Assembly (NCBI GenBank): GCA_016873615.1
Contig: VGWX01000010.1
Location: forward strand, 1 to 45,762
From: Nitrospira sp.
GTDB lineage: Bacteria; Nitrospirota; Thermodesulfovibrionia; Thermodesulfovibrionales; SM23-35
Length of the DNA: 45,762 bases
Reading direction: 5' to 3'
Each line of letters opens with the position of its first letter. Position 1 is the stretch's first letter. Below the pieces are notes generated by a model. It had not been told where the DNA came from. It ran no database searches and saw only the letters and a program-made list of their open reading frames with translations. Positions 15,578 to 40,059 of the stretch are shown piece after piece. The translations under genes were made by a program, and so were the position numbers.

Positions 15578-16339
15578 ATGAAGAAAGTTTTATTATTAGT
15601 CCTTGCGTTGTCTTTAGTATTGGGCGTTGCTACAGTCCTCAGAGCCGGCATAGACAGCCCGGGTGTCAAAGACACTCCTCATGATGTTCGGATAATTACC
15701 GGCGAGGAAGGCTTAGAGCCATGCGCTATGTGCCATTCACCACACTCAGGCACTGGTGAATATCCATTATGGAACAGGGATCAGGGCCCGCAGACATACA
15801 CACTGTATGAAAGCGTTTCATACGATATGTACAGCGGCAACCAGCCGGCATCTCCGTCTTCGCTCTGTCTTGTTTGCCATAACGGAGTTTTCAGCTCACT
15901 CGTTAACTATCCCGGACCCGGCTCACATAGTGGTGAGGAATACGATTATGAGATGAACCCGACTTTCTGGGCCATGCTCGGCACCGACCTCACAAACGAA
16001 CATCCGATCAGCTTTACCTACAACCCGTATATGGATAACACCCAGGACAATAACGGGTTCCCGGATGTAGTGCCGTGTACCACAGGAACAAGAGTCAGGT
16101 GGTGGATTCCTTCAGCAGGCGGCCCCAGCCTGGCCTATCCGCTGTATGGCAACGATAACGGCGGCCATCAGTTTGAATGTTCAACTTGCCATGCTGTCCA
16201 CGATACTGTTCGCTATAACGGCAAGCAGCTCGTCGGCGGCAAATCAGTAGGTACCCAGGTATACTTCCTGAGAAACAGCAATGCAGTATCTGAAATGTGC
16301 GCAGACTGCCACAGGAACAGGTACGACGGTTCATGGTAG
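15578..16339 (+). CDS. Periplasmic tetraheme cytochrome c, hydrogenase-associated
   Basis: The 253-residue precursor has a Sec signal peptide (MKKVLLLVLALSLVLGVATV, cleavage probably after LRA near residue 23) and four CXXCH heme c sites starting at Cys49, Cys97, Cys201 and Cys241. The layout CxxCH...PLWN...CLVCH...HPISF...CxTCH...CxDCH matches the cytochrome at 31424-32143, so the two are paralogues. A strong GGAGGTGA site precedes the ATG. As the first full-size gene of the hydrogenase operon, it is the likely electron acceptor of the NiFe enzyme, passing electrons from H2 oxidation to the periplasmic cytochrome pool. That role is inferred from position; the heme count is read directly. Confidence 0.9.
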   Translation: MKKVLLLVLALSLVLGVATVLRAGIDSPGVKDTPHDVRIITGEEGLEPCAMCHSPHSGTGEYPLWNRDQGPQTYTLYESVSYDMYSGNQPASPSSLCLVCHNGVFSSLVNYPGPGSHSGEEYDYEMNPTFWAMLGTDLTNEHPISFTYNPYMDNTQDNNGFPDVVPCTTGTRVRWWIPSAGGPSLAYPLYGNDNGGHQFECSTCHAVHDTVRYNGKQLVGGKSVGTQVYFLRNSNAVSEMCADCHRNRYDGSW

Positions 16340-19518: not shown

Positions 19519-19533
19519 GGTTAAGACCTTTTT

Positions 19534-19565: not shown

Positions 19566-19638
19566 GCCTGTAAGCATACAATTTCATTTATAATTAAGGC
19601 GCATATATGAAATCATTTCATTGGAAAGGCATATAAAA

Positions 19639-20115
19639 ATGGACAATCCAAAAAAAATACTCATCCTCGGGATCGGGAACATCCTGCTGAAGGATGAAGG
19701 TATCGGAGTGAGGGTTGCTGAAAAAATGAAAGAAATGTCGCTTCCTCCTGATGTAGAGGTCATGGACGGAGGCACCGGCGGACTTGATCTTGTCTATTGC
19801 ATCGAAGGTAGAAAGAAGGTTGTTGTTGTTGACGCTGTTAAGGCAGGGGCCCCCCCCGGAACTCTCTTCCGGTTCACAGACAAAGACCTTGCAAAGAAAA
19901 AAGGGGTTATGCGTTCAGCCCATGGGATCGATTTTTCCGATGTCGTAGCAGTTGCGAGCTTTTTGAAAATTAAGCCGGCTGAAATAGTATTCCTCGGTAT
20001 TGAACCTGAAGACCTCAGCGCAGGCATGGAATTGTCGCAAAAGATCGACAAGATGGTTCCTGTGCTGATAAATCTTGTCATTAAGGAGATCATTCCGGAT
20101 CCTGCTGCCAAATGA
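19639..20115 (+). CDS. Hydrogenase maturation endopeptidase (HyaD/HynM/HycI family)
   Basis: The 158-residue protein shows the classical M52-type features: LILGIGNILLKDEGIGVRV at the N-terminus with the first nickel-sensing acidic residue (Glu of KDEG), MDGGTGGLDLV, a VVVVDAVKAG strand with the second acidic residue, and SAHGIDFSDV with the His of the site. This family trims the C-terminal tail of the large subunit after nickel insertion; here the tail would be the 29 residues after His563. ATG 19639 was chosen because GGAAAGG precedes it; a TTG at 19621 is in frame but less likely. It lies just past the operon terminator. Confidence 0.9.
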   Translation: MDNPKKILILGIGNILLKDEGIGVRVAEKMKEMSLPPDVEVMDGGTGGLDLVYCIEGRKKVVVVDAVKAGAPPGTLFRFTDKDLAKKKGVMRSAHGIDFSDVVAVASFLKIKPAEIVFLGIEPEDLSAGMELSQKIDKMVPVLINLVIKEIIPDPAAK

Positions 20116-24107: not shown

Positions 24108-24953
24108 ATGAGAACATTTAAAAAACATCGTTCTCTCTGGTCTCTGCTCTTTGTTTGCCTTTTTGTCACTTTCATCTGTTTAACCATTTTATCGGTCCAG
24201 AAAGAAAGTCTTGCGCAGGAAAAGGCTTCCTCACCGGCTATTCAGTTGTCCGCCGCCGATTGCATTAAGTGCCACTCGTCGGTGCAGGGAATGGTTGACA
24301 GCAAGGGAGCAAAACACAAGACAGCCGTCACCTGCATGCAGTGCCATAAGGGACATCCGCCTATGGTAAGCAAGGAAAAGATCATCCCTCTATGCAGCGA
24401 ATGCCACGCAGGCAAGCCGCATTACGAGATCGGCGGCTGCAATACCTGCCATGCAGACCCTCATGCCCCGCTGGATATGAAACTGTCTGCCAACCTTACT
24501 GCGCCATGTCTTTCCTGCCATGACAAGGAGGGACAGGAGCTGAAGAACTATCCCAGCCGCCACACAAAATTGTTCTGCACAACATGCCATAAAGCGCATA
24601 GAGATGTACCACCCTGTCTGAAATGCCATCAGCCTCATTCGGCAGAGATGGTCGACAAGGACTGCATGAGCTGCCATCCCGCGCATCAACCGCTGACCAT
24701 AACCTATGGAGCTGACATGGCGTCCAAAAACTGCGCTGCATGTCATGCAAATCTCTTCAATACACTGACCGGCACAGGGACAAAACATTCTGCATTGGCA
24801 TGTGTTTACTGTCACAAGGAAAAACATGGAAATGTCCCTGCATGTGAGACCTGTCATGGTTCGCCCCATCCCTCAGGGATGCTGGAGCGTTTTCCGAAAT
24901 GCAACATGTGTCACATTAGCGCACACAGTTTAGGAAAGGAGGTTAAGAAATAA
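24108..24953 (+). CDS. Dodecaheme cytochrome c (first of tandem pair)
   Basis: The 281-residue protein has an N-terminal signal/anchor segment (residues about 11-31, ending near SLAQ) and twelve CXXCH motifs with first cysteines at 52, 76, 96, 111, 134, 157, 170, 186, 209, 232, 246 and 265. They fall into three units of four hemes, each with the pattern CxxCH, then [KR]H-x4-CxxCH, then two closer CxxCH. With almost the whole length given to heme sites, it should act as an electron wire or capacitor in the periplasm. Most CXXCH are accompanied by spare His residues, which suggests bis-His ligation. It overlaps the next gene by three bases (TAATG). Confidence 0.92.
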   Translation: MRTFKKHRSLWSLLFVCLFVTFICLTILSVQKESLAQEKASSPAIQLSAADCIKCHSSVQGMVDSKGAKHKTAVTCMQCHKGHPPMVSKEKIIPLCSECHAGKPHYEIGGCNTCHADPHAPLDMKLSANLTAPCLSCHDKEGQELKNYPSRHTKLFCTTCHKAHRDVPPCLKCHQPHSAEMVDKDCMSCHPAHQPLTITYGADMASKNCAACHANLFNTLTGTGTKHSALACVYCHKEKHGNVPACETCHGSPHPSGMLERFPKCNMCHISAHSLGKEVKK

Positions 24954-25813
24954 TGAGTCACAGGAGAAAAGCAGTTTTACTGACCGGATGTTTGTTGACC
25001 CTGTTAGCCTTTGTTGCGGCGTTCGCATATGCGCAGCAGCCGGCCGCAGCCCCGAAACAGGCTTCCTCTCTGTATTCAGCAGAGATAATCCCTTTAACCC
25101 CTGCTGAATGCGGCCGCTGTCATTCGAGCATATATTACCAGCTCAGGAACGAAGGTGGAAAACATCAGCTTGAGTGCACGAAATGCCACGCCAAATTTCA
25201 CGCGTATAACCCGATAAAACAGAACTGGAAAGAAATTATGCCGAAGTGCCAGAGCTGCCACGGCCTTTTCCACGGCGATAAGGTTACAGCTTGCGGCGAA
25301 TGTCACAGCGAGCCTCATGCGCCGAAGAAACAGATAGCTGCGAGCGGCGAACTCGCAAAGATGTGCAATGACTGCCACGGCAAAGTCGGCCAGGAGCTTC
25401 AGCAGAATCTGAGCAAACACACAAAGGTACAGTGCGCAAGCTGTCATCACGACAGGCACGGATACATTCCTTCATGCATGGAATGCCATAAGCCCCACAC
25501 ACCAAATCAGACGGTAAAAGACTGTCTGGCATGTCATCCTGTTCATTCACCTCTGAAGATCGCTTATCCGAAAACAACAGGGAATGATGTTTGCGGCGGC
25601 TGTCACAGCGCTGTATATGACAAACTGACAAAGTCTGCCAGCAAGCACAGCCAGGTTTCATGCGCTGCCTGCCATACAAAGCACAGATACATACCGACAT
25701 GCGCGGAATGCCACGGCAAACCTCATGGTGAAGTTGTGCTGAAGAAATTCCCTGACTGTCTGGCATGCCATGTAGACGTACACGATCTTCCGACAAAGAC
25801 AAGCAGGAAATAG
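24953..25813 (+). CDS. Dodecaheme cytochrome c (second of tandem pair)
   Basis: The 286-residue protein is a paralogue of the previous one, with twelve CXXCH motifs (first cysteines at 53, 75, 99, 114, 138, 161, 175, 191, 214, 237, 250, 269) in the same spacing and the same three tetraheme units. It has a Sec signal peptide (hydrophobic to about residue 25, AYA cleavage). The ATG at 24953 shares a base with the previous stop and has a strong GGAAAGGAGG site inside the upstream gene. A terminator follows directly. The two proteins probably form partners or alternative periplasmic carriers; the redox partner is not evident, but a hydrogenase-linked cytochrome and an outer-membrane conduit lie either side. 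Confidence 0.92.
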   Translation: MSHRRKAVLLTGCLLTLLAFVAAFAYAQQPAAAPKQASSLYSAEIIPLTPAECGRCHSSIYYQLRNEGGKHQLECTKCHAKFHAYNPIKQNWKEIMPKCQSCHGLFHGDKVTACGECHSEPHAPKKQIAASGELAKMCNDCHGKVGQELQQNLSKHTKVQCASCHHDRHGYIPSCMECHKPHTPNQTVKDCLACHPVHSPLKIAYPKTTGNDVCGGCHSAVYDKLTKSASKHSQVSCAACHTKHRYIPTCAECHGKPHGEVVLKKFPDCLACHVDVHDLPTKTSRK

Positions 25814-25832
25814 TCAGTCTTATTATTGAAAT

Positions 25833-25874
25833 ATATATCCCCGGGAATTTAAGTAATTTCCGGGGATATTTTTT
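25833..25874 (+). terminator. Rho-independent terminator after the dodecaheme cytochromes
   Basis: ATATCCCCGGGAATT pairs with AATTTCCGGGGATAT (one G/T-type mismatch) around a short loop and is followed by TTTTTT. Confidence 0.85.
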
Positions 25875-25920
25875 GTAGAGATTTAATTTTTTTGGGTAAC
25901 GCTTCAGTGAAGCGTGGATA

Positions 25921-26022
25921 TATCCCCACTTTGGAAAAGGGGGGCAAGGGGGGATTTTTGTATTATCTTGAAATCATTTAATAAAATCTCCCCTAACCCT
26001 CTTTGCCAAAGAGGGGAATTAA
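25921..26022. repeat. Pair of inverted C/G-rich palindromic repeats (MITE/REP-like)
   Basis: A copy reading ccccactttggaaaaggggg at about 25924 is followed by an opposite-strand copy (cccctaaccctctttgccaaag, about 25990-26012), so the whole segment is roughly palindromic. The same family occurs at 42516-42562 and 42955-43005 inside hypF. The gap between 25814 and 26106 otherwise holds only the terminator and a promoter. Confidence 0.75.
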
Positions 26023-26069
26023 TTTTTTACACCTTTGACTGAAGGGATTCTTTTTTAATGACTATCTTA

Positions 26070-26099
26070 TTGACAAGCATTAAAGAATATTATTAGACT
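26070..26099 (+). promoter_or_regulatory. Promoter directly abutting the 11-heme cytochrome start
   Basis: TTGACA (26070-26075), an 18-base spacer and TAGACT (26094-26099) lie so that the expected transcription start is at or next to the ATG at 26107. No ribosome-binding site is visible, so the transcript may be leaderless. Confidence 0.45.
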
Positions 26100-26106
26100 A
26101 AATCAT

Positions 26107-27078
26107 ATGAAATTTAGCATATGCGGCAAAAACAAGATAAGTCTCTTCAAGATATTAATTCTTCTTTCCGCAACGCTTTTTATTTTTACTTCTTTTACCC
26201 ATGAAGCTCATTCTGCGGAAGAGAACCCCTGTGTAACATGTCATGCAGATTTGAAAAAAAAGGCGAAGAGTGTTCACGCAGCAATAGCGCTGGGCTGTTC
26301 ATCATGCCATAAAAGCGTCGAAGGTAAAAACCACCCTGCCCAGAAAGGCAGCATCATATTGACGCAGAGTATGCCCGGACTCTGTTACAGTTGTCACGAT
26401 GAAGCAAAATTCAAGGGCAAATCAGTCCACCAACCGGTATCAGGCGGCATGTGTACAGGTTGTCATGACGCCCATCAATCAAATTATCCTAAGCTTCTCA
26501 TGAAAGATATTCCGGGAGTCTGCTATTCCTGCCATAAAGAAACAAAATTCAAAGGAGGCAAGTCAGGTCACACAAATATAGGCATGTGTAACGGCTGCCA
26601 TAATCCTCACAGCTCTAATTCAGATAAAATTCTTATGGGGGATCAACCCGGTATGTGCTATAATTGCCATGATAAATCAAAGTTCACAAAAAAATATGTT
26701 CACGCAATAATCCCTGCCGGCGGTTGCACCTCGTGCCATATCCCTCATATATCAGAATACCCTGCACTTCTTACCTCAAACATACAGGAATTATGCCTGA
26801 CATGCCATGTAAAAAAAGACGGGCGTCACGTTGTATCGATTCCCGATTCAGGTAAAACTAAAAGGATTCATCCGGTCAGCGGAGTTACTGATCCAAGCAC
26901 AACAACGATGTTAACAGTAGAAGATCCTGATAAACCGAAAACTTTCAAGATAATTGCTGATCCTAAAAATCCAGGGAAGTTAATGAACTGCGTGAGTTGC
27001 CACGATCCTCACAGCTCAGATTTCAGAAAACTTTTCCCTACAAACAAATTATGCGGAAAATGCCACAAAGATTATTAA
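26107..27078 (+). CDS. Undecaheme cytochrome c (doubled-CXXCH type)
   Basis: The 323-residue protein has a signal peptide (hydrophobic 13-30, HSA cleavage) and eleven CXXCH motifs (first cysteines 42, 64, 93, 116, 139, 161, 184, 207, 230, 295, 316). The middle part is a repeat of the doubled-CXXCH type: PGxCYxCH...KFK....H....GxCxxCHxPHxS. An insert of about 60 residues without heme lies between hemes 9 and 10. It is the first gene of a cluster with two beta-propeller lipoproteins and an outer-membrane barrel, so it may be periplasmic or may be the exported extracellular cytochrome of that cluster. The ATG lacks a ribosome-binding site. The next gene starts inside its last codons. Confidence 0.92.
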   Translation: MKFSICGKNKISLFKILILLSATLFIFTSFTHEAHSAEENPCVTCHADLKKKAKSVHAAIALGCSSCHKSVEGKNHPAQKGSIILTQSMPGLCYSCHDEAKFKGKSVHQPVSGGMCTGCHDAHQSNYPKLLMKDIPGVCYSCHKETKFKGGKSGHTNIGMCNGCHNPHSSNSDKILMGDQPGMCYNCHDKSKFTKKYVHAIIPAGGCTSCHIPHISEYPALLTSNIQELCLTCHVKKDGRHVVSIPDSGKTKRIHPVSGVTDPSTTTMLTVEDPDKPKTFKIIADPKNPGKLMNCVSCHDPHSSDFRKLFPTNKLCGKCHKDY

Positions 27079-28091
27079 TTCTTTTCTCAACCTTACTGCT
27101 TTTTTTAATCTTCTCTTCAGGATGTGCTACCGCACCTTCAACTCCAGGGGCAGAGACCCCAAAAGGCGAATATGTATGGCCGAACCCGCCCGCGACTGCA
27201 AGAATCAAATGGCTTACGCAGTGGTCCAACCGGAATGATTTCAGCAAAGCAAGCGAGGTCCTTGAATTTCTCATCGGAAAGGAACGGGTTGAGAAATTGC
27301 GCAGGCCCGCTGGTGTTGTTGCTGATTCGGCCGGAAATATCTATGTTGCAGATTCTGAAATGCGCATGGTTTTTTTGTTCGATATGGAGAGAAAATCCCT
27401 GAATTTTCTGGGCATAGGATCTTTGGCCGGTCCTGTTGGCCTTGCAATTGACAACAAATTTGGAGTTTTATATGTGTCGGATTCCCGGCTTGACAAAGTA
27501 TTTGCTCTTAATAAGCGGACCGGTAACGTTGTCATGACTATTGGTTCCCCCTCAGAATTTAAAAATCCCACAGGAATGGTTTTTAACGAGGAAAAAGGAT
27601 GGCTATATGTCTCTGATACACAAAACCATGTTATAAAGGTCTTCAACAGAGAAGGCCGTCCGCTCTTCACAATAGGTAAAAGAGGGGATCAAAATGGTGA
27701 GTTCAATTTCCCGAGTTATCTTGCCCTTGACAGAACCGGCAGGTTATATGTTGTTGATTCTTTCAATTTCAGGGTTCAGATATTCGATCCTGAAGGAAAT
27801 TTTATTAATAAATTTGGCCGGTTAGGAGACGCATCAGGTTATTTTTCAAGACCTGGCGGAATAGGGATAGACTCTGAAGGCCATATTTACGTAGTAGATT
27901 CTGCATTTAATAATTTTCAGATTTTCAACAGTAACGGCAAGCTTCTCCTCTGGATTGGAAATGCAGGAACAAAACCAGGGGAATTTTCTATGCCGTTAGG
28001 AATGTATGTAGACAGTTCAGATAAAATCTATGTATCCGATACTTTCAACAGAAGGGTCCAGGTCTTCCAATATTTAAAAGAACAAAAATAA
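27051..28091 (+). CDS. NHL-repeat (six-bladed beta-propeller) lipoprotein
   Basis: The protein starts with a short basic head, a hydrophobic stretch and a lipobox (LIFSSGC), so it should be a lipoprotein. The body is made of NHL repeats: RPAGVVADSAGNIYVADSEM, FPSYLALDRTGRLYVVDSFN, RPGGIGIDSEGHIYVVDSAF and MPLGMYVDSSDKIYVSDTFN are clear blades. I prefer the ATG at 27051 (or 27060), overlapping the cytochrome gene by about 28 bases; the frame is open further upstream but that would remove the signal sequence from the N-terminus. It is paralogous to the lipoprotein at 30307 (shared VWPxPPxTxRIK segment after the lipobox). Such propellers often accompany porin-cytochrome loci and may hold cytochromes at the outer membrane; the role is inferred. 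Confidence 0.88.
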   Translation: MRKMPQRLLILFSTLLLFLIFSSGCATAPSTPGAETPKGEYVWPNPPATARIKWLTQWSNRNDFSKASEVLEFLIGKERVEKLRRPAGVVADSAGNIYVADSEMRMVFLFDMERKSLNFLGIGSLAGPVGLAIDNKFGVLYVSDSRLDKVFALNKRTGNVVMTIGSPSEFKNPTGMVFNEEKGWLYVSDTQNHVIKVFNREGRPLFTIGKRGDQNGEFNFPSYLALDRTGRLYVVDSFNFRVQIFDPEGNFINKFGRLGDASGYFSRPGGIGIDSEGHIYVVDSAFNNFQIFNSNGKLLLWIGNAGTKPGEFSMPLGMYVDSSDKIYVSDTFNRRVQVFQYLKEQK

Positions 28092-28284
28092 AAGCATTAT
28101 TTCCAAATATATATTTAATTTTCTTCTATGTTATCTAACTCAGAATAAAAGGGTTAAATAAATGCTTCATATCAGATAATCTTTTCCATTAATAAAGAAT
28201 AATTTTTTATATTTCCTTTCCTATTTTTTTTCATTCCAAAATATTAAATAACCTTGTAATATATAAAATAGCGGAGTTTTGTCT

Positions 28285-28362
28285 ATGGATAGGTATGCTT
28301 ACAGGTTTATACTTATTTTTATTTTGAATTATTGCTTATATTTCATATGGTTGGAGGTATAA
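28285..28362 (+). CDS. Possible 25-residue hydrophobic leader peptide before the beta-barrel gene
   Basis: ATG 28285 follows a GGAG site at 28272-28275 and encodes a very hydrophobic 25-residue peptide (MDRYAYRFILIFILNYCLYF then IWLEV). Its last codons contain the GGAGG site of the beta-barrel gene, and its TAA ends one base before the TTG start. It may couple translation to the poor TTG start, be a tiny membrane protein, or be chance in AT-rich DNA. The rest of the 272-base gap 28092-28363 is AT-rich without other features. Confidence 0.3.
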   Translation: MDRYAYRFILIFILNYCLYFIWLEV

Positions 28363-28363
28363 C

Positions 28364-30310
28364 TTGAAGGACAGTGGGAAGAAGATTGCTTTTCTGTTTT
28401 TTCTAATCTTCTTTTTCTTATCTGTTGCTCTTTGCACAGAATCTTCTGCTCAAATGGTTGCTGGTTACCCTAAAAAATTCCATTTCAGTGGATTAGCACA
28501 ACTCCAGTATAAAAGTTACTCCTTCGAGACCTCTTTTAATGGAAGCAGTTATAAGAATGACTACTCTCATTTTGAACAGCATTACAATCTCAATCTTGGT
28601 GGTTATATATACCATCCGAGACTTATTGTCTTCAATTCTTCGATCTATTTTACTTACTTAAAATCTCTCACAGGGGTTGATATGAAAGGCAATGATTTAA
28701 CTTATAATGTTTTTACAACCGTACTCCCGTACAGACCTGTTTCCCTCGAACTTTTTGGCACAAGAGAGCATTCCTCCTTTGAAGCTGCGACTTCAGCGCT
28801 TCCTGACAGAACTATAAATCACTACGGGGCACGACTAAAGATCAAATTAGAAAAACGTGAGGCGCTGAAATATATAAGGCTCAGCTATGAGCATTGGGAC
28901 TATATTACTGAAGGGATATCCGAAAAGAACAAAACCGACGCATACAGTCTTGTCATCAGAGGGTTTTTGAGCAAAATACGAACTCGATACTCCCTGTCAT
29001 ACTCGATCTCTAATTATTCTTCTCCTTCTGACAGGCTTGACAGTAAATTTTTTAATTTATTTACGGAGACAGGCTTAACAAAAAAAAGAACTGTTTTATT
29101 TATGACTTTTTCTCATGCAGATTCTAAATATTCAGGCGGAAACTATACTAAAGAATCAAACTTCAGCGCTAACCTTAGTTTTCCACCTGGAATACGTTAT
29201 TATCATGACTATATGTATTTATACAATACATTAGAACAATTCTACAAAGGCAGTCTGTTTGCCGGAACAGAAGATACATTAAATGAATCTACTAATCACT
29301 TAATCAAAGGTTCCTGGGGGTACAGGTTTACAGAAAAACTAATGGGCTCACTTAGTCTCGACTACGGAAAACGAAAAATTAATACTGAGAGCGGAAAGCT
29401 TACCGGAATAAGCACAGGGTTATCATACTCAAGGACTATAGCTGGTCTCAATTTTCAATCGTCCTATAGATTCATCTTGAAAAAAGATGAGTTAAGAGAC
29501 GATTTCAATGAGCACTCGCTCAATGTTGGCCTCACAAGACAGGTCAGATTCGGCACAGCGTATATGCATTATTATCTAATAAAATCAAACTCTAAAAGTA
29601 AGGTCTTTGAACAGAACGATGAAACCTTTTTAGGAGAAGAGAATGACAAAATCGTACTCGGTGAAAGAACAACCGACACTCTGTCACATGTCATATTGCT
29701 GGGCATCAGGGGGAGGGGATATGGAAAGGTATTGGGAAGGGCCATATGGACTATAGAAGGCACCTATTACACGGTGGAATCAAAAATAAAGAAGCCTATC
29801 CGATCTACTGGCGAATGTATTATTGATGAATTTACTGGTGAATGTATTGATGAAGGATTTGCTGATGATGAATGTATTATTGATGAAAATACTGGTGAAT
29901 GTATTGATGATGGGTCCTCGGGAACAGCATATGAGGAAATTACAAGGAAAAGAAAGCAATATTCCATATATGGGCAATTTTTCCTGCCCGTCAGAAATAG
30001 CATAAATCTGTATTCGAGAGCAAGATATTCTTGGGGAGAAATTGACTCTATAAATAGAAGCAGTCTTATCATAGATGCACGGCTGACCTATGTTATATAT
30101 AGAAATATTACTCTCACCGGCTTATGGAGAGGCAGATGGGATAAAATTAAGGGCACGCCCGACAGAAGAACCTTTGACTATGAAGCAGAACTTGATTATC
30201 GCAGGGGAAGGCTTCTTTTATCCCTGGAATTCTACCTCACACAGACAAAACAGAATAATATAACGAATCTCTCAAGACGAATTTTTCTTACTTTAAAAAG
30301 GTATCTATGA
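28364..30310 (+). CDS. Outer-membrane beta-barrel protein of the cytochrome cluster
   Basis: The 648-residue protein has a signal peptide (hydrophobic 9-24, SSA cleavage) and a body dominated by alternating-hydrophobicity strands with aromatic girdles, for example FHFSGLAQLQYKSYSFE and HYNLNLGGYIYHP, ending in a strand with a terminal aromatic/Leu (FLTLKRYL). This is the pattern of a large barrel with more than 20 strands. Around residues 484-516 there is a duplicated acidic, Cys-containing loop (GECIIDE, TGECIDEG, DECIIDE, TGECIDDG). Start is TTG at 28364, supported by GGAGG six bases before; an ATG alternative is not available. Set between two propeller lipoproteins and several multiheme cytochromes, it is a good candidate for the porin of a transmembrane electron conduit, analogous to but not recognisably homologous with MtrB or OmbB. 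Confidence 0.78.
   Translation: MKDSGKKIAFLFFLIFFFLSVALCTESSAQMVAGYPKKFHFSGLAQLQYKSYSFETSFNGSSYKNDYSHFEQHYNLNLGGYIYHPRLIVFNSSIYFTYLKSLTGVDMKGNDLTYNVFTTVLPYRPVSLELFGTREHSSFEAATSALPDRTINHYGARLKIKLEKREALKYIRLSYEHWDYITEGISEKNKTDAYSLVIRGFLSKIRTRYSLSYSISNYSSPSDRLDSKFFNLFTETGLTKKRTVLFMTFSHADSKYSGGNYTKESNFSANLSFPPGIRYYHDYMYLYNTLEQFYKGSLFAGTEDTLNESTNHLIKGSWGYRFTEKLMGSLSLDYGKRKINTESGKLTGISTGLSYSRTIAGLNFQSSYRFILKKDELRDDFNEHSLNVGLTRQVRFGTAYMHYYLIKSNSKSKVFEQNDETFLGEENDKIVLGERTTDTLSHVILLGIRGRGYGKVLGRAIWTIEGTYYTVESKIKKPIRSTGECIIDEFTGECIDEGFADDECIIDENTGECIDDGSSGTAYEEITRKRKQYSIYGQFFLPVRNSINLYSRARYSWGEIDSINRSSLIIDARLTYVIYRNITLTGLWRGRWDKIKGTPDRRTFDYEAELDYRRGRLLLSLEFYLTQTKQNNITNLSRRIFLTLKRYL
29813..29911 (+). 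repeat. Tandem 42-base direct repeat inside the beta-barrel gene
   Basis: Copies at 29813-29854 and 29870-29911 are near identical (differences at tttact/aaatact and the last bases). They encode a twice-repeated acidic segment with two cysteines each, probably an extracellular loop. Confidence 0.8.
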
Positions 30311-31383
30311 TCTTATATAGATCAATAAAAATAAGAATTGCTTTAAAAAACCATCTTGTTTTTATGTTTTATGCGTGTTGCCTTCTTCTAAATGCCGGAG
30401 GATGCGCTACGACAGGATCTCAGACTTCGTTTTTTCATATCGATGCGGAGAGCGGAAACCTTGTTTGGCCTCCGCCTCCGCAAACAACAAGGATTAAATA
30501 CATAGGAAGCATTGCAGCTCCTTCAGAATCAGGAGAGCATAAATCATGGTTTTCAAGTTTTCTTTTCGGAAAAGAAGAACCAATAGGACTAATGTTAAGA
30601 CCCTATGGTGTTTTTGCTGATGCTAACGTAGTCTATGTAACTGACCCGGGGCTGGCTCTTGTGCACGTTTTTGATCTGGAAGGGAAAAAATATTTTCGGA
30701 TTGATAAAGCAAAGGATGAAGACCTTGTATCGCCTATAGGAATTGCTGTTGATAAAAATGGCGACATTTATATTTCAGACTCAATACTTAAAAAAATCTT
30801 CATGTTTAATCGAGAGGGTAAATATATAAAAGAAGTAGGCTCTTCGGATATGTTTATAAGGCCTGCGGGCATTGCGATTGATGAAGATCGAATCTATATT
30901 GTTGATACCCATGCGCATAAAGTCTTCATTTTTTCAAAGAAGGATGGCAAATTCTTATCAGCATTCGGTGGGAATGGCACAGGGAAAGGTGAATTCAATT
31001 ATCCTACGAATATCTTTTCAGGGAAAGACGGATTGCTCTATATAACCGACTCTCTCAATTTCAGAATACAGATATTCGACGGAAACGGTAATTTCATCTC
31101 TTCCTTTGGCAAGCACGGTGACAGCCTGGGTGATTTTTCAAAACCAAAAGGTGTTGCAGTTGATTCTGAAGGACATATCTATGTTACTGACGCTCATTTT
31201 GACAATGTTCAGATATTTGATAAAGACGGAAGGTTGCTTCTCTCATTCGGAAATTCAGGCCGCAGAAAAGGAGAATTTACGCTTCCCGCAGGAGTTTTTA
31301 TAGACAAGCATGACAGAATCTATGTGGCTGATTCATACAATAACCGGATTCAGATGTTTCAGTATTTAAAAGAAAAAATATAG
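30307..31383 (+). CDS. Second NHL-repeat beta-propeller lipoprotein
   Basis: The 358-residue protein starts with ATG overlapping the barrel's TGA stop (ATGA), so the two are translationally coupled. The N-terminus is basic, then hydrophobic, then a lipobox (LNAGGC). NHL blades follow: RPYGVFADANVVYVTDPG, SPIGIAVDKNGDIYISDSIL, RPAGIAIDEDRIYIVDTHAH, KPKGVAVDSEGHIYVTDAHF, LPAGVFIDKHDRIYVADSYN. It shares the post-lipobox VWPPPPQTTRIK motif and the C-terminal F-Q-Y-L-K-E-[QK] end with the lipoprotein at 27051, so the two are duplicates flanking the barrel. Likely a periplasm- or surface-facing scaffold of the conduit. Confidence 0.88.
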   Translation: MILYRSIKIRIALKNHLVFMFYACCLLLNAGGCATTGSQTSFFHIDAESGNLVWPPPPQTTRIKYIGSIAAPSESGEHKSWFSSFLFGKEEPIGLMLRPYGVFADANVVYVTDPGLALVHVFDLEGKKYFRIDKAKDEDLVSPIGIAVDKNGDIYISDSILKKIFMFNREGKYIKEVGSSDMFIRPAGIAIDEDRIYIVDTHAHKVFIFSKKDGKFLSAFGGNGTGKGEFNYPTNIFSGKDGLLYITDSLNFRIQIFDGNGNFISSFGKHGDSLGDFSKPKGVAVDSEGHIYVTDAHFDNVQIFDKDGRLLLSFGNSGRRKGEFTLPAGVFIDKHDRIYVADSYNNRIQMFQYLKEKI

Positions 31384-31410
31384 ATTAATATTAGGATAGT
31401 TGCAGTATTG

Positions 31411-31423
31411 TATAATAAATAAA
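31411..31423 (+). promoter_or_regulatory. TATAAT box seven bases before the tetraheme cytochrome start
   Basis: A perfect -10 hexamer (31411-31416) is followed by seven bases and then ATG 31424. No ribosome-binding site precedes the ATG and no clear -35 is present. Together with 26094 and 45464 it suggests leaderless transcription. Confidence 0.4.
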
Positions 31424-32143
31424 ATGGCTATGAGAATAAGTTTTAGATTAATCCTGACTTTTTTGCTGACTATAACATGCTGCATTCTCTGCATGCTTAC
31501 TCCTATGGCTTCAGGGGTTGGGGTCAAGAATACAAAACATAACTTGTCTGTTAAAGGCCCGGGGCCTGCTCAAGCAACACAAGAGACCGGCGTCTGCATA
31601 TTTTGTCATACTCCCCACAATGCAAGTCCTGCAATTCCTCTGTGGAATCATGAACTGTCAGAAGTCGAAGATTACATAAATTATTGGAGTCCGACACTAA
31701 AGTCATATGCATCTGCTGCAGAAGCTCCTCCAATCGACGGTTTCTCGAAACTGTGTCTCAGCTGCCATGATGGAACAGTTGCTCTCGGAGCATTAGTGAA
31801 TCGAGCAGACACAGTAGAAACGGTTCCTGATTATTTAACATACGGAATGGAAGGTTATATCGGCACAGACCTGTCAGGGGGACACCCTATTTCTATTGTA
31901 TTTGATTCAGCCTTAGTAAACCTGAGAAATCAGTCCCCTAATATAATGCATCTCAAATGGCCTGTAGATGACCCTCATGTAAAACTCTATTCCACCCAAA
32001 AAGGCAAGGGAATTCAGTGTACAACCTGTCATGACCCTCATGGCGGCAGAGGAGGGACAGGCGCTCCGCCGTTCTGGCAGAAATCCACTCACGATGAAGT
32101 CTGCTTGGTATGCCATGATATAATCACACCGATAGGTCATTGA
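31424..32143 (+). CDS. Tetraheme cytochrome c, paralogue of the hydrogenase cytochrome
   Basis: The precursor (239 residues from ATG 31424) has a signal peptide (hydrophobic about 8-27) and four CXXCH sites: CIFCH, CLSCH, CTTCH and CLVCH. The arrangement CxxCHTPH...PLWN...LCLSCH...GTDLSGGHPIS...CTTCHDPH...CLVCH parallels the hydrogenase-linked cytochrome at 15578, so both may interact with similar partners. A start at ATG 31430 is equally possible; a TTG further up is unlikely. It follows the second propeller lipoprotein by 40 bases and precedes another cytochrome by 18 bases. Confidence 0.9.
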   Translation: MAMRISFRLILTFLLTITCCILCMLTPMASGVGVKNTKHNLSVKGPGPAQATQETGVCIFCHTPHNASPAIPLWNHELSEVEDYINYWSPTLKSYASAAEAPPIDGFSKLCLSCHDGTVALGALVNRADTVETVPDYLTYGMEGYIGTDLSGGHPISIVFDSALVNLRNQSPNIMHLKWPVDDPHVKLYSTQKGKGIQCTTCHDPHGGRGGTGAPPFWQKSTHDEVCLVCHDIITPIGH

Positions 32144-32161
32144 TAGGCAACGGAAAAAAGA

Positions 32162-33265
32162 ATGAGGCATAAATTTATATATAAAGTTCTTCTCCTACCC
32201 CTCGTAATCTGTTTTGTTCCGGTCTCACTTTATTCATCGTCCTTTCGTGAAAGTCCCCACGGTGATAAGAGTAAGTTACCGAAAGGCTGTGCAAGTTGCC
32301 ACAAAGGGCATGGAATGAAGAATACTCCCATGCTTTCTGATGAAAAACAGGATTTCTGTTTCAAATGCCACGGTGACAGTGTAACTGTCGCAAATACAAG
32401 AAGAACAGGATATCTCGCTGCAGATACAAAAGCTGCTAATCTCAAAAGAGAATTTGAAAAATCATATCGTCATCCTGTTGATAAGACCGGAATTCACAGA
32501 TATAACGAAACCCTGCCTGAAACTAATTCATCGGCACAGAGACATGCAGAATGTGTTGATTGCCACCATTACCACTATGTGACAACATCGAATAAAACAA
32601 AAGGGTTAAGAGGACTAACCATAGACAGGCAAATAGTCGACAGCATTCAATCAGAATATGAACTCTGCCTTAAATGCCATTCATACAGTGCAAATCTGCC
32701 TGCGGATCAGACAAATAAGGCTGAACTCTTTAAAACCTCAAATCCATCCTACCACCCGGTAATAAGCCAGGGTAAAAATAACACTGTTCCGAGCCTGATT
32801 CCCCCTTTATCAGAATCAAGCACTATTAAATGCACCAATTGCCATAATAATGATGACCCTCTGGGACCAAAGGGGCCTCATGCCTCCAATTACAGGCATA
32901 TACTGGCAAGAAACTTTAATCGATCCGATGGGGCAGAGAGTTCTTTTCAATATGAACTCTGCTATGGTTGCCACAGAAGAAGCAGTATTCTCGGGAATGA
33001 GAGCTTCAAATACCATAGTCGCCACGTCTCTATAGCAGGGACCTCGTGCAGGACATGTCATAATCCGCATGGAAGTTCTCTCTATCCGCATCTTATTGAT
33101 TTTAATAATCTGTCCATCGCCCCTTCCAGCAGCGGACGCCTGGATTTCAAAGATATTGGGTTTAAATCAGGAGAGTGTTTTTTAACATGTCATAACAAAG
33201 ACCATAACCCTGCATCATATCCGCTGAACACTTCTGTCGGTTCGTCTAAACGCAAACGAAATTAG
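32162..33265 (+). CDS. Multiheme cytochrome c with seven CXXCH and one CX3CH motif
   Basis: The 367-residue protein has a signal peptide (about residues 4-26), seven CXXCH motifs (first cysteines 43, 66, 131, 169, 224, 267, 296) and an eighth, unusual CX3CH site, Cys339-Phe-Leu-Thr-Cys343-His344. Doubled-CXXCH features (GCASCHKGHG...FCFKCHG; CRTCHNPHGSSLYPHL) are visible. CX3CH and CX4CH heme sites are known in some multiheme cytochromes, but whether this one is loaded cannot be told. It has a GGAAAAAAG site before ATG 32162 and is the last gene of the conduit cluster, convergent with the next gene. Confidence 0.9.
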   Translation: MRHKFIYKVLLLPLVICFVPVSLYSSSFRESPHGDKSKLPKGCASCHKGHGMKNTPMLSDEKQDFCFKCHGDSVTVANTRRTGYLAADTKAANLKREFEKSYRHPVDKTGIHRYNETLPETNSSAQRHAECVDCHHYHYVTTSNKTKGLRGLTIDRQIVDSIQSEYELCLKCHSYSANLPADQTNKAELFKTSNPSYHPVISQGKNNTVPSLIPPLSESSTIKCTNCHNNDDPLGPKGPHASNYRHILARNFNRSDGAESSFQYELCYGCHRRSSILGNESFKYHSRHVSIAGTSCRTCHNPHGSSLYPHLIDFNNLSIAPSSSGRLDFKDIGFKSGECFLTCHNKDHNPASYPLNTSVGSSKRKRN

Positions 33266-33276
33266 GCTTTGATTCT

Positions 33277-35094
33277 TTAGTCCCCATATGCCCTAAGGAA
33301 TTGTAATCTATCGCTGACAATTTTATTGTCAGGATCTATCTTTATAGCCTTCAGATATGCTCCTTTTGCATCCTTGTAATCCTTTTTTGCAAGGAAGGCA
33401 TCTCCTATCGTTATCAGAAAATTTATTCTGCGGGGTGAATCCTTGGATTTGATTGCGGCCTCTGTAACAACTTCATTCCATAACCATTCCTTCGGAATCC
33501 CGAACCTGTCAATGACATGCCTGTTTTGAGGGCTTTCCCTTACAAAGATTAAGGATATATTATCCATATACACAAGATGCCATTCAGGATCGTTCAGCAT
33601 TGCAGGGACTAAAGGAACCAGTGTGCCGGTAAACTGATCCACTGAAAATGTTATGATAAAGTCAACCTTATAGGACTGCAAATATGCCCTCCATAATGGG
33701 ATACCGCGAAAGTCCTGTGTATTTGCTGTAAGAATAGTCATATACTGAAAATAGACCTCTTCTATCAATCCCCTTCCGTCAATTAATACCTTATATTGCG
33801 GATAGAGGGCCCATATCAGATACCCGCCCCAGTTGTATGTATTAAACATGTTCCCTGAAATCCTGTTGCCTTTCAGAAACTTGACAGCTCCCTCAGGATA
33901 TTTATCATGCCTTATCCCGCTTTTCGTAAACAATTGAAATTGAACAGACGCAACAATGAGGAGTATGCATAGAAAAACAGTAAATATCATACCGATATAT
34001 TTTCTTATTGAATCGAATTTTTCCCTCCATAATATTTTTGATATCTGGACCCCATATCTGGTTATCATAAGAGTCGCTACAGGTATAAAAAATGGAATGA
34101 ACCGGACAGCTGACAAACTCATGACTGCAAGTCCTGAAAATATCAGCATGTCAGTCAGGTCAAGTTTCTTCAGATTGATCAAAAGGATCATGCAACTTAT
34201 GATTAAAAGCACAAAGAAAAGCAGCACGTTGACATAATCTATGCCTATTGTGAAAGGAGACATAGCTTCTATAATCGTGTCCTTATATCTGCCTTTCTCA
34301 AGTTCCAACAATACAGATACAACACTGAAACCGTTTGGGTTTATGAATGATGCAATTACAGATATGATGCTCATGAATGTTAAAGACCTGAGACTCCTGT
34401 ATGAAAGTGCTTTTCCAAATCTTTTTAGGTTATATTTGACTGTTTCAGAGATAAGATAGCCGGAGATAATAGCAATGCCCAATATGTACCCACCATGCAG
34501 ATTTGCCCAAAGGAGCATTACAAAGGGAATCGGCCATAAGTAGCCTTGCCCCCTGGGCTTCATTTCAGATAATTGATCATTGCATTGAGATGACCGTTGC
34601 CTGAAGCCTTCTAAAAGGTAAATTATCAGGAAAGAAAAAAAGAAAGAAAATAGCTGTGGTCTTTCACCTGTATAGTTGGAGGATAAGATTATAACTCCCG
34701 GAATAAGCAGCGCTACAGAAATCGGAACACCCAAGCCTTCCCGTCTTATCCCTCTGTAAGTGATAAATACAAGGGCAGTCAGAATTAGGGATCTCAGAAA
34801 TGTGATTCCCTGAAAACCAAATAGCTGGTATATCCAGTAAAAAAAGACCTGTGCAAGCCAGTATTGTGTTAATATGAACTGAATTCGTTTAGATTCCGCA
34901 TCAACCGGATCTTTAGGCAAAGATGTATATGAAAAAGGGTCGGTCTCCGGCAAGGATCGTGTCTGATAGATATACTCGCCGGTCTTTAGGTGCCACCAAA
35001 AATCAGAGTCCCTGATCTCGACAGAAAACAGACCAAATACAAAAAGAAAAAACAGAATGAATAAAATAATCCTTGATATTTTTTTAAAATTCAC
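33277..35094 (-). CDS. Polytopic membrane protein with C-terminal TPR
   Basis: The 605-residue protein has about ten hydrophobic helices (first at about 8-26, further ones between 85 and 390), a conserved early DSDFWWHLKTGEYI motif, and a soluble C-terminal part ending in TPR-like repeats (LITIGDAFLAKKDYKDAKGAYLKAIKIDPDN). The DSDFWWHLKxGE motif is typical of a family of membrane proteins of unknown function that resemble GT-C glycosyltransferases, with the acidic residues in the first periplasmic loop. Start is GTG 35094 with no good ribosome-binding site, so the start is less certain. It lies downstream of the second maturation-protease gene on the same strand. Confidence 0.7.
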   Translation of the reverse strand: MNFKKISRIILFILFFLFVFGLFSVEIRDSDFWWHLKTGEYIYQTRSLPETDPFSYTSLPKDPVDAESKRIQFILTQYWLAQVFFYWIYQLFGFQGITFLRSLILTALVFITYRGIRREGLGVPISVALLIPGVIILSSNYTGERPQLFSFFFSFLIIYLLEGFRQRSSQCNDQLSEMKPRGQGYLWPIPFVMLLWANLHGGYILGIAIISGYLISETVKYNLKRFGKALSYRSLRSLTFMSIISVIASFINPNGFSVVSVLLELEKGRYKDTIIEAMSPFTIGIDYVNVLLFFVLLIISCMILLINLKKLDLTDMLIFSGLAVMSLSAVRFIPFFIPVATLMITRYGVQISKILWREKFDSIRKYIGMIFTVFLCILLIVASVQFQLFTKSGIRHDKYPEGAVKFLKGNRISGNMFNTYNWGGYLIWALYPQYKVLIDGRGLIEEVYFQYMTILTANTQDFRGIPLWRAYLQSYKVDFIITFSVDQFTGTLVPLVPAMLNDPEWHLVYMDNISLIFVRESPQNRHVIDRFGIPKEWLWNEVVTEAAIKSKDSPRRINFLITIGDAFLAKKDYKDAKGAYLKAIKIDPDNKIVSDRLQFLRAYGD

Positions 35095-35141: not shown

Positions 35142-35594
35142 CTAAGAAATTTCTTTAAGGATCATATCCATAACTTCAGGCAACTTTTTTTCAATTTCAG
35201 GGGTCATCTGTTCAGATTCAGTTTTGGAATCAAGGGGAACTACCCCGATAAATACTGTTTCCGGGCAATAGCCGGTTAACTTACACATGTCCAGTGTATC
35301 AATGAGATGTGATTTTGCCGCATCTTTCTTAATTTCAATATATAAAGGCAGTTCTTCAAGTGTCATACGAAGAATGGCGCCGGGTTCTTTTTGAGCATGG
35401 AAGATATCAACAACAATTACTTTATCCTTAGTATCGATGACATGCGGTATCATACAGGCTGAGAAACCAACTTCCATGATATCCACGTTATCAGGCAGTT
35501 TCATTTTTTCTAACTTTTTGAACACGTGGTATCCAAATGCATTATCGGATGCGAATGGATGACCACAACACAGGATCAATATTTTTTTATTCAC
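35142..35594 (-). CDS. Divergent hydrogenase maturation protease-like protein
   Basis: The 150-residue protein has the general layout of the HycI/HyaD family: a beta-strand plus glycine loop at the N-terminus (ILCCGHPFASDNAFGYHVF), VDIMEVGFSACMI, KVIVVDIFHAQ, and AKSHLIDTLDMCKLTGYCPETVFIGVVP. The usual GNxLxxDDGxG loop is changed to GHPFASDNAFG, keeping one Asp. It is much more divergent than the protease at 19639. The GTG start shares one base with the pdxJ stop (TAGTG). It may process a second hydrogenase elsewhere in the genome, or a non-standard large subunit. It is encoded with hypE and pdxJ. Confidence 0.7.
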   Translation of the reverse strand: MNKKILILCCGHPFASDNAFGYHVFKKLEKMKLPDNVDIMEVGFSACMIPHVIDTKDKVIVVDIFHAQKEPGAILRMTLEELPLYIEIKKDAAKSHLIDTLDMCKLTGYCPETVFIGVVPLDSKTESEQMTPEIEKKLPEVMDMILKEIS

Positions 35595-36319
35595 TATACT
35601 CTCCTCGAAGCTTCATTTATTAAATTCTTCATTTCTCTCACGGCTTTTTCTATTCCAACGAGCACAGCCCTTGAGATAATGCTATGCCCTATATATAGTC
35701 CTCTTAAGCCCTGAACAGATGCAATTTTTGAGACATTGAAATAATTCAGTCCATGACCTGCATTCACCTGAAGACCAATGTCCAATCCGTATTTGATTGA
35801 TTTCATAACCCGGACTATCTCTTTTTCCTGTCTTTTCCCTTTTGCATTTGCATACATCCCGGTATGGATCTCAACCATATCAGCGCCTGTCTGACTTGAA
35901 ATCTCTATATCATCCTGGTCCGGATTAATAAAGAGGCTTACCGGTATCCCTGCGCTCTGAATCTTTTTTATCGATTCACGAATATGCTTTTTCTGAGATT
36001 TTACATCAAGCCCGCCTTCTGTAGTCAGTTCCTGACGTTTCTCCGGCACCAATGTTACCAGATCAGGCTTTAGCTTGGCAGCGATATTTATCATTTCTTT
36101 TGTAGCTGCCATTTCAAGGTTGAGTTCGACCGGCACAAACTCCCTGAGCATCCACAAATCCCTGTCCTGTATATGACGCCTGTCTTCCCTCAAATGGACA
36201 GTAATGCCGTCAGCCCCACCAAGTATAGCCAGAGTCGCAGCCATAACAGGGTCAGGCTCGCACCCCATCCTTGCCTGCCTCAATGTTGCAACGTGATCGA
36301 CATTAACTCCAAGTATCAT
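35594..36319 (-). CDS. pdxJ: Pyridoxine 5'-phosphate synthase
   Basis: The 241-residue protein begins with the typical MILGVNVDHVATLRQARMG of PdxJ and carries GADGITVHLREDRRHIQD and, at the C-terminus, VNAGHGLNYFNV and LYIGHSIISRAVLVG, all strongly conserved in the family. PdxJ condenses 1-deoxyxylulose 5-phosphate with 3-amino-1-hydroxyacetone 1-phosphate in the cytoplasm to make vitamin B6 phosphate. The length matches the family norm. It sits between hypE (43 bases upstream) and the protease-like gene (1-base overlap). The link to hydrogenase maturation is only by neighbourhood. Confidence 0.95.
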   Translation of the reverse strand: MILGVNVDHVATLRQARMGCEPDPVMAATLAILGGADGITVHLREDRRHIQDRDLWMLREFVPVELNLEMAATKEMINIAAKLKPDLVTLVPEKRQELTTEGGLDVKSQKKHIRESIKKIQSAGIPVSLFINPDQDDIEISSQTGADMVEIHTGMYANAKGKRQEKEIVRVMKSIKYGLDIGLQVNAGHGLNYFNVSKIASVQGLRGLYIGHSIISRAVLVGIEKAVREMKNLINEASRRV

Positions 36320-36329
36320 TTACCTTTGG

Positions 36330-36358
36330 CCCCTCGAATCCCTGAATCCTTGAACACT
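36330..36358. repeat. Single arm of the AAGGATTC/GAATCCTT dispersed repeat
   Basis: The gap between pdxJ and hypE reads cccctcgaatccctgaatcc and then ttgaaca, the same sequence type as the arms at 13263-13278 and 43711-43725. No matching second arm is close by. Confidence 0.5.
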
Positions 36359-36362
36359 AAAA

Positions 36363-37361
36363 TTAACAAATTCTCGGCAATTGGTCGCCGGAGAGCATCT
36401 CAATTATTCTTGTACCGCCAATAGCAGTCTTGAGTAAAACCATGCCGGAAGGTGATTCCTTTACCTCACCGATAATGCGGGCTTCTTTTCCGAGCGGATG
36501 TTTTTTCATGATTTTTACAAGCGGCTCTGCAACCTGAGATTTCACTATTGCGATAAGTATCCCCTCATTCGCAACATACAGTGGATCAAGACCAAGGAGC
36601 TCACATGCCCCTTTTACTCCCTGTGGCACAGGGATGGCCTCTTCTTCTATAAAAATGCAATAACCTGAGTCAACTGCAATCTCTTTTAAAGTCGTTGCGA
36701 GACCACCTCTGGTAGGATCTCTCATGGCATGTATTTCTTTTGTTTTTTTCAGCATCCTGTCAACAAGACCGTTAAGAGGCGCTGTATCACTTATAATAGG
36801 CGGGTTAAAACTGATCCCGTTTCTCTCTGCTATGATAGAAATTCCATGGTTGCCGACAGAACCGCTGATAATGACCTTATCAGACGGCCTGACCTTTAGT
36901 GGAGATACATCAATGCCCTTTTTTATCAGGCCAACTCCTGATGTATTGATAAATATGCCGTCGCCCTTGCCTTTATTCACAACCTTGGTATCACCGGCAA
37001 CTATCTTGACCCCGGCCTGAGCAGCAGCAGATGACATGGATGCGAGTATCTTCTTCAAATCATCGAGTGGAAATCCCTCTTCAAGAATCAGTCCTGCTGT
37101 AAGATAGAGAGGTTTTGCTCCGACCATGGAAAGATCATTAACAGTTCCGTAAACAGCAAGCTCTCCGATATTGCCTCCAGGAAAAAAAACAGGTGAGACA
37201 ACATAAGAATCAGTTGTAAAGGCAAGCTTTCCTTGATCTATCCTGCCAAGCACTGCTGAGTCGTTCAGCGCTTTAAGCTCAAATTGAGGCACAAAGTGTT
37301 CCCGTATTAACTGATACATCAACCTTCCACCACTGCCGTGACCGAGCAGAATCCTCTCCAT
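36363..37361 (-). CDS. hypE: Hydrogenase maturation protein HypE
   Basis: The 332-residue protein is of usual length for HypE and shows GHGSGGRLMYQLI, DSAVLG, the ATP-grasping FTTDSYVVSPVFFPGGNIGE, AGDTKVV and the essential C-terminal PRIC with Cys332. HypE carries the carbamoyl group on this cysteine and dehydrates it to a thiocyanate, the source of the cyanide ligands of the NiFe site, with HypF as donor. The AGGAGG site lies at good distance before ATG 37361. HypE is homologous to SelD and PurM, but the Cys at the end and context fix it as HypE. Confidence 0.95.
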   Translation of the reverse strand: MERILLGHGSGGRLMYQLIREHFVPQFELKALNDSAVLGRIDQGKLAFTTDSYVVSPVFFPGGNIGELAVYGTVNDLSMVGAKPLYLTAGLILEEGFPLDDLKKILASMSSAAAQAGVKIVAGDTKVVNKGKGDGIFINTSGVGLIKKGIDVSPLKVRPSDKVIISGSVGNHGISIIAERNGISFNPPIISDTAPLNGLVDRMLKKTKEIHAMRDPTRGGLATTLKEIAVDSGYCIFIEEEAIPVPQGVKGACELLGLDPLYVANEGILIAIVKSQVAEPLVKIMKKHPLGKEARIIGEVKESPSGMVLLKTAIGGTRIIEMLSGDQLPRIC

Positions 37362-37436
37362 CTGAGTAGCCTCCTGATTTATTTAGTTTATTTTAACATA
37401 CCGGAATATCTGTTATATATAACCTTGTTTCTTTCC

Positions 37437-37475
37437 TTTATCTGTACCTTTACCTGTGCCTGTTCCTCTATTTTT
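37437..37475. repeat. Pyrimidine-rich hexamer repeat (reverse complement of that at 10350)
   Basis: The stretch ctgtacctttacctgtgcct and its continuation repeats the same 6-base theme. It lies in the gap between the AcsC-like gene and hypE, at the 3' end of the AcsC-like frame. The core is shared with 10350-10397 in the opposite orientation. Confidence 0.45.
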
Positions 37476-38100
37476 ATTCTGTTTGAGGCGGGATCCATAT
37501 TTCTGAAAGGAATAAAGGCAGTTCAGCAGCGCATACCGGCCCTACCCTCACCTGCCATCCGGTCAGTTTCTCTATATCTCCTTTTACGGAATAAGCAAGG
37601 CCCGGAATTATCATTTCTTTAGCGCTTACCTTTTCTTCCATACCTGCCTCTTTTAAGGCGTCATGGACCTTTTCAGCAGTCAGGGTATGATAAATCATCG
37701 ACATATCAACTGTATTTCCGCCTGTATCCGAAAATACAACGAAGAACGGGCAGACAGTGGTGCCGAGAACCATCATTAAAACCTGTTCAGTATATTCATT
37801 ATTGCCTGAAATAAGCACTAAAGACCCGGCATTTGGTTCATTTAATTCAACAAGTCCGGTGAAGCCCGGCCTTGGGTGAAGAAGAAGTGGCACTTCAGGC
37901 CATAATTCTCCTATTTTCTTGATTGCCTCAAAGGCATGGGCTTTGTTCCTGCCAATAAAAGAACATTCCTGAATCTTGCTTATTCCTTTTCTGACTGCAT
38001 CTATAAATTCCCCGCATGATGGGTATCCGCACTGTATACAATCAGTTGGATCAATATACTTCTGGAAATCTATTCTGTCAAAATATAAATCTGCTGACAT
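37474..38100 (-). CDS. Short AcsC/CdhE-like Fe-S and corrinoid-domain protein lacking the TIM barrel
   Basis: The 208-residue protein begins with the Fe-S motif of the corrinoid iron-sulfur protein large subunit (Cys21, Cys24, Cys29, Cys46 in DCIQCGYPSCGEFIDAV...KIQEC). It ends with a region that resembles the C-terminal corrinoid-binding part (KEMIIPGLAYSVKGDIEKLT followed by GWQVRVGP). The TIM-barrel that lies between these parts in AcsC/CdhE (about 440 residues) is absent. HgcA-like proteins share part of this arrangement, but the HgcA cap-helix motif NVWCAAGK is absent. It lies upstream of hypE on the same strand. Its function is unknown; possibly an activating or electron-delivering factor for a corrinoid enzyme or an Fe-S assembly partner. 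Confidence 0.75.
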   Translation of the reverse strand: MSADLYFDRIDFQKYIDPTDCIQCGYPSCGEFIDAVRKGISKIQECSFIGRNKAHAFEAIKKIGELWPEVPLLLHPRPGFTGLVELNEPNAGSLVLISGNNEYTEQVLMMVLGTTVCPFFVVFSDTGGNTVDMSMIYHTLTAEKVHDALKEAGMEEKVSAKEMIIPGLAYSVKGDIEKLTGWQVRVGPVCAAELPLFLSEIWIPPQTE

Positions 38101-38253
38101 TCTCTCATCGTCAAAATAAAATATACTTGATGTTTACTTTAGAAATATACCAAAATTCCTGTATAAATATCTCTTTGGAGATAATCATTGACCCAACTGA
38201 TAACAGAAATGACTAAAAAGTTAGCAAGTAAAACAACGTTATTGTGTCAATGT

Positions 38254-38345
38254 TGTCATTCTGGCTTGTCCAGAATCCTTCCTTTATCAGAAAGATTCTC
38301 GCCTCAGGCGAGTCGCCGAGGTGACCCGACAAGCGGGAATGACAG
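38254..38345. repeat. Palindromic MITE-like element with a nested hairpin
   Basis: The left end TGTCATTCTGGCTTGTC and the right end GACAAGCGGGAATGACA are inverted copies with a few mismatches. A smaller palindrome CTCGCC-TCA-GGCGAG lies inside. The type (TGTCATTCC...GGAATGACA) is a common dispersed element in related genomes. It has no coding capacity, and its right end provides the first possible start codons of the next gene. Confidence 0.75.
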
Positions 38346-38359
38346 AAGTGGTTTTACTT

Positions 38360-40039: not shown

Positions 40040-40059
40040 TCCTGTTCATCACCCGGTTT

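Follow-up and report, generated by a model that had tools for sequence, protein, structure and literature searches.

The window, a stretch of 45,762 nucleotides from a Nitrospira sp. contig, holds a series of genes on the plus strand (Table 1), in which the six open reading frames between 26107 and 33265 encode proteins with 11, 0, 0, 0, 4 and 7 heme motifs. All six are present as the original prediction had listed them, as an 11-heme cytochrome, a propeller, a 648-residue barrel, a second propeller and two further cytochromes. It had also described overlaps between several of the genes, which holds for two junctions: propeller 1, for which an ATG start is likelier than the TTG at 26997, overlaps the 11-heme cytochrome by 19–28 bases with either of its two candidate ATG codons, and the barrel and propeller 2 overlap by 4 bases. 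Propeller 1 and the barrel, however, are separated by a gap of 272 bases. The barrel starts with a TTG preceded by GGAGG, and the tetraheme reading frame (31400–32143, with four CXXCH motifs) probably starts at the ATG at 31424 or 31430. The 11-heme cytochrome matches the DmsE family TIGR03508 with an E-value of 3e-41 and a score under the curated cut-off, and the 7-heme protein has an additional CX3CH beside its seven CXXCH motifs. Upstream lie two 12-heme cytochromes (24108–25813), and six other clusters of the window's family have such a pair at the equivalent position.

Table 1. Features of the gene series, with the second OmcE-like cytochrome of the window and a repeat within the barrel gene.
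Feature	Position	Strand	Basis
Free OmcE-like tetraheme cytochrome; candidate wire subunit or hydrogenase partner	15578..16339	+	PDB 7tfs E=1e-17; tree
12-heme cytochrome, probably periplasmic	24108..24953	+	12 CXXCH; upstream of cluster in 6 other family clusters
Second 12-heme cytochrome, paralogous	24953..25813	+	12 CXXCH; pairing with the first conserved
11-heme cytochrome, partly DmsE/MtrA-like; candidate wire in or below barrel	26107..27078	+	11 CXXCH
NHL beta-propeller lipoprotein 1	27060..28091 (start 27051 or 27060)	+	PF01436 E=1.5e-33; lipobox SSGC
Large outer-membrane beta-barrel, UetC-like, 648 residues	28364..30310	+	AlphaFold2 beta-strand pattern; profile match
Tandem repeat inside barrel gene	29806..29912	+	TRF period 27, 3.9 copies
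NHL beta-propeller lipoprotein 2	30307..31383	+	PF01436 E=3.9e-31; lipobox AGGC
OmcE-like tetraheme cytochrome; candidate N-terminal half of a split UetJ	31424..32143	+	7tfs match; tree; ligands
7-heme cytochrome; candidate C-terminal half of a split UetJ	32162..33265	+	7 CXXCH; undecaheme C-terminal domain match; tree

The barrel was predicted to have no recognisable match to MtrB, and this was borne out: no match was found in Pfam or NCBIfam, nor any meaningful one among PDB sequences, MtrB included, and no plug or TonB-receptor domain was found in it. A contig scan with the single barrel sequence gave no match; a profile built almost solely from barrels outside the Nitrospirota found the window barrel as its sole strong match genome-wide (E=6e-12). 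Comparison of profiles in the manner of hhalign related the barrels of the family to those of gammaproteobacteria (E=1.5e-24) and planctomycetes (5e-19). The AlphaFold2 model of the window barrel has a pLDDT of 69 and a poor middle part, and that of another family member (L093) has a pLDDT of 91 and shows about 28 long strands together with a small domain inserted among them; the strand count of the window barrel is extrapolated from this model. A low-confidence stretch of the window model coincides with the insert encoded by the tandem repeat, whose 27-base unit gives an acidic, cysteine-bearing sequence (GECIIDE/GECIDEG) that is unneeded for the fold and is perhaps a surface loop. Foldseek searches with a family barrel gave generic large barrels, such as TonB-dependent receptors, as the best matches; MtrB was third by E-value and had the top TM-score among the matches listed (0.41). 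As modelled, the family barrel is of MtrB size, yet not a relative of MtrB by sequence, and at that size it would in principle be wide enough to hold a cytochrome. An identity as TonB receptor or usher was rejected, the matches being at the level of the generic fold only.

These generic matches would also fit a plain channel for solutes, or one of TonB type, placed among cytochrome genes by chance, but the lack of a plug or TonB-receptor domain and the leading TM-score of MtrB speak against this, and the surroundings of the barrel do so more widely. We surveyed 396 Nitrospirota genomes, 38 of which have a barrel relative, picking 40 barrels by homology alone with their context unused, and then inspected what lies around them. 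An NHL gene is found at most three genes from the barrel in 34 of the 40, and a cytochrome with at least three hemes at most four genes away in 37, the exceptions being mostly contig ends or NHL genes slightly beyond the range; no NHL protein was found among 97 genes lying more than seven genes away. Within the window's family the order 12-12-11-NHL-barrel-NHL-4-7 (numbers being hemes) recurs at a barrel identity of 26–33%, which puts the series far above chance. We looked for barrel homologues that are ordinary porins lacking cytochrome neighbours, and the cytochrome-free settings found were contig-end cases and a few divergent matches only, while homologues in 13 or more phyla keep both NHL and cytochrome neighbours. 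A solute channel is thus very improbable, and the porin–cytochrome conduit of the original prediction is well supported, the neighbours being conserved across the barrel homologues. A second copy of the module is present in the window's own genome (contig C71, 1–4000), where it is cut by the contig end; its right half consists of a barrel C-terminus at the end of the contig, an NHL gene, an OmcE-like 4-heme and a 7-heme cytochrome.

Most of the parts have a published counterpart in the Uet (undecaheme electron transfer) system, reported from Ca. Tenderia electrophaga and some Gallionella (Eddie 2022, as cited in PMC10734462 and PMC12575090). The Gallionellaceae study lists an undecaheme UetJ, an extracellular tetraheme UetA, a PPIase UetB, a barrel UetC, trihemes UetDEG and the NHL proteins UetHI (PMC10734462), and a review describes uetABCDEFGHIJ as a conserved cluster of Tenderiales (PMC12575090). 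The system so described resembles the window cluster in having a barrel, two NHL proteins and eleven hemes of UetJ type, with an OmcE-like tetraheme as a candidate further match. The comparison of the barrel with UetC is by way of gammaproteobacterial stand-ins, barrels from clusters with Uet-like parts to which the window barrel is homologous, and the Uet assignment as a whole is drawn from the published parts list and gammaproteobacterial clusters of similar composition. The window differs in that its counterpart of UetJ is not one protein but two adjacent genes with 4 and 7 hemes, that the cluster adds 11- and 12-heme cytochromes, and that its free tetraheme, the candidate counterpart of UetA, lies 10 kb off beside a hydrogenase. 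Neither a PPIase (UetB) nor trihemes (UetDEG) were found in 24108–33265, so the cluster is not a plain member of the Uet type.

The two-gene counterpart of UetJ can be followed in sequence. The 4-heme protein of the cluster matches the OmcE nanowire subunit of Geobacter sulfurreducens (PDB ID: 7tfs; E=6.1e-23) and also 9yuq (E=4.6e-16), and the 7-heme protein has a weak match to a chain of 6r2q (E=7e-4). Some 60 undecaheme proteins begin with an OmcE-like domain and end with a domain matching the 7-heme protein of the window; separate adjacent 4- and 7-heme genes are found in the window's family, some other Nitrospirota and a few acidobacterial loci. A tree of 194 OmcE-like domains groups the split copies with the N-terminal domains of UetJ, apart from a branch of free tetrahemes that holds OmcE, 9yuq and the window's other tetraheme at 15578, and a tree of the 7-heme parts agrees, placing the window protein with UetJ; both are quick, unrooted trees with SH-aLRT support only, compatible with either fission or fusion of UetJ. 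Given this placement, we dropped the 4-heme protein of the cluster as a filament subunit in its own right. From these comparisons, UetJ-like undecaheme proteins are an OmcE-like domain fused to a 7-heme domain, present in this lineage as two adjacent genes with 4 and 7 hemes, an arrangement that seems new.

The heme-binding residues of OmcE are retained almost throughout. All 16 ligating residues (four CXXCH motifs and four further His) are kept in every split copy, whereas one fused copy out of 65 and three free ones out of 110 lack one of the further His; both tetrahemes of the window have the full 16 at the OmcE positions. The domain of the cluster is thus homologous to that of OmcE with the same set of ligands, the difference being that it sits in the UetJ branch. 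The original prediction had suggested that the complex perhaps exports a cytochrome filament, and the idea of a filament is strengthened by the 4-heme protein being a relative of OmcE; export of a filament by the barrel stays a proposal.

Approaching the module from the opposite side, we searched public genomes for OmcE-like genes, which gave 80 loci in many phyla, and widened the barrel family by a profile search blind to position. An NHL gene is present at 69 of these loci, the same barrel family at 54, and a UetJ-like undecaheme protein or its 7-heme part at 58. Loci that have NHL, barrel and UetJ-like protein (or 7-heme part) together come from 13 named phyla; the barrel–propeller module is thus present in at least 13 phyla, and its recurrence beside OmcE-family cytochromes seems new. 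Within the window's family, barrel and OmcE-like gene occur together in all nine genomes with the barrel, and an OmcE-like gene is found in none of the six barrel-free genomes that were searched both ways (owing to the relatedness of these genomes, the cases do not count as independent). The system had been put forward as a candidate new conduit; its novelty would lie in the split UetJ and the association with OmcE, as the parts match the published Uet conduit (PMC10734462, PMC12575090). A link of OmcE, NHL and barrel was not found in the literature searched, though parts of it may already be in print.

Other systems resemble the cluster in part. MtrCAB (PDB ID: 6r2q) likewise combines cytochromes with a large barrel of similar size, but the barrels have no sequence match, NHL proteins are absent from MtrCAB and the surface cytochromes differ. 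The OetABI conduit of syntrophic sulfate reducers has a cytochrome–barrel–cytochrome make-up like that of the window and is often tied to filament-type cytochromes; NHL propellers are unmentioned in its description (PMC10553843). In Desulfovibrio ferrophilus, multiheme cytochromes lie beside NHL propeller genes as they do here (DFE_0448-0451 and DFE_0461-0464), at clusters where no apparent porin–cytochrome conduit was reported (PMC9769857). Seven OmcE-type loci of Geobacter, Desulfuromonas and relatives have an NHL gene, a tetraheme and a protein of 696–806 residues. The latter proteins have a barrel-like C-terminus and are unmatched by the barrel profile; they were rejected as close homologues at profile level, the hhalign link being weak (80%, E=1.4e-5).

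Taken together, the kinds of part present, what they are homologous to and the order kept among relatives make it probable that the cluster as a whole encodes a trans-outer-membrane electron conduit of Uet type. The reading with the best support is that electrons move from cytochromes in the periplasm, by way of the barrel, to a 4+7-heme cytochrome at the surface. The wide barrel would span the outer membrane, with the 11-heme cytochrome as a wire inside or below it, the two 12-heme cytochromes as periplasmic carriers and the two NHL lipoproteins capping or bracing the barrel. The 4- and 7-heme proteins would jointly form the surface cytochrome, for which other phyla have one undecaheme protein, UetJ, and the 4-heme half, as an OmcE homologue with every heme ligand kept, could be an end piece where an OmcE-type wire docks. 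Electrons could pass in either direction between periplasmic dehydrogenases (a hydrogenase or, in relatives, formate dehydrogenase) and an extracellular partner.

Whether the OmcE-like half has to do with a wire at all is a closer matter. We give somewhat less than an even chance to its seeding or anchoring a nanowire, a role read from its homology to OmcE and its kept ligands. A serious contender, again a little short of even, is a plain porin–cytochrome conduit with no filament, in which the 4- and 7-heme proteins simply act as reductase or oxidase at the cell surface, much as MtrC or OmcB do, and the likeness to OmcE goes back to common descent of the fold and nothing more. The grouping of the 4-heme protein with UetJ domains, rather than with known filament subunits, agrees with this, as does the fact that a free OmcE-like subunit was not found in three conduit-bearing genomes of the family; set against it are the retention of all heme ligands, a distal His included, in split and fused copies (with the single fused exception given above), and the free OmcE-like genes that lie in or near many of the clusters. 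Alternatively, barrel and propellers might form a device for secretion or assembly by which OmcE-type subunits reach the surface, while other cytochromes carry electrons across. In many Nitrospirota clusters the barrel gene has a SurA-like PPIase gene next to it, which would suit a factor that helps exported or barrel proteins to fold, and NHL and barrel genes recur beside OmcE-family genes, but the window cluster has no PPIase and a multiheme cytochrome able to fill the barrel is always nearby, and we consider such a device unlikely.

To return to the conduit, its setting in the genome offers candidate electron partners. The free OmcE-like tetraheme at 15578 is the first gene of a set (15578–20115) that continues with the small and large subunits of a NiFe hydrogenase and a maturation protease, with a LuxR-type regulator gene (14509) upstream. 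Two relatives (L173, L174) have the same cytochrome type beside hydrogenase, and a third (L175) has it beside a Tat-exported formate dehydrogenase, whose alpha subunit is divided between two open frames, the pattern expected if a TGA codon encodes selenocysteine; a like set is found in L176. On the minus strand at 35142–43605 lie genes for a HycI-type protease, a HypE-like protein of the AIRS family, HypD and HypF, with a pdxJ-like gene in between, so that these maturation genes and the hydrogenase flank the conduit cluster on opposite sides. The genome also has dsrA. Given that the OmcE-like cytochrome adjoins hydrogenase or formate dehydrogenase, H2 or formate is a plausible electron partner of the conduit, and the occurrence of a free OmcE-like cytochrome beside either enzyme in this family seems new.

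Two further genes of the window are of note. The minus-strand gene at 33277–35094 encodes a membrane-like protein of 605 residues that ends in TPR and may be a glycosyltransferase; relatives of it lie near OmcE-type loci in several Nitrospirota and at a locus of Desulfuromonadales, and Wzy_C/TPR proteins are found between tetraheme and PPIase genes at other loci. Glycosylation of the surface cytochromes is possible. At 1606–13248 on the plus strand, a single protein of 3880 residues has many glycosyltransferase domains of family 2 and group 1 together with TPR repeats.

To our knowledge, it is an open question how cytochrome nanowires are fixed to a cell and become charged, and to this a surface cytochrome bearing a nanowire-subunit domain would be a concrete and testable answer. 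Tentatively, and with rather less than even confidence, we propose that OmcE-type nanowires of many bacterial phyla have their base in the outer membrane in a complex of barrel, propellers and UetJ, the OmcE-like domain of UetJ serving as the first wire subunit and being linked through the 7-heme domain to the conduit in the membrane. With the module found in at least 13 phyla, conduits of Uet type would be much wider spread than their descriptions from Tenderiales and Gallionellaceae. For the window's family, H2 or formate is hinted at as the electron partner by the neighbouring hydrogenase and formate dehydrogenase genes, and the split form makes a nanowire-subunit-like domain available as a separate protein in this lineage.
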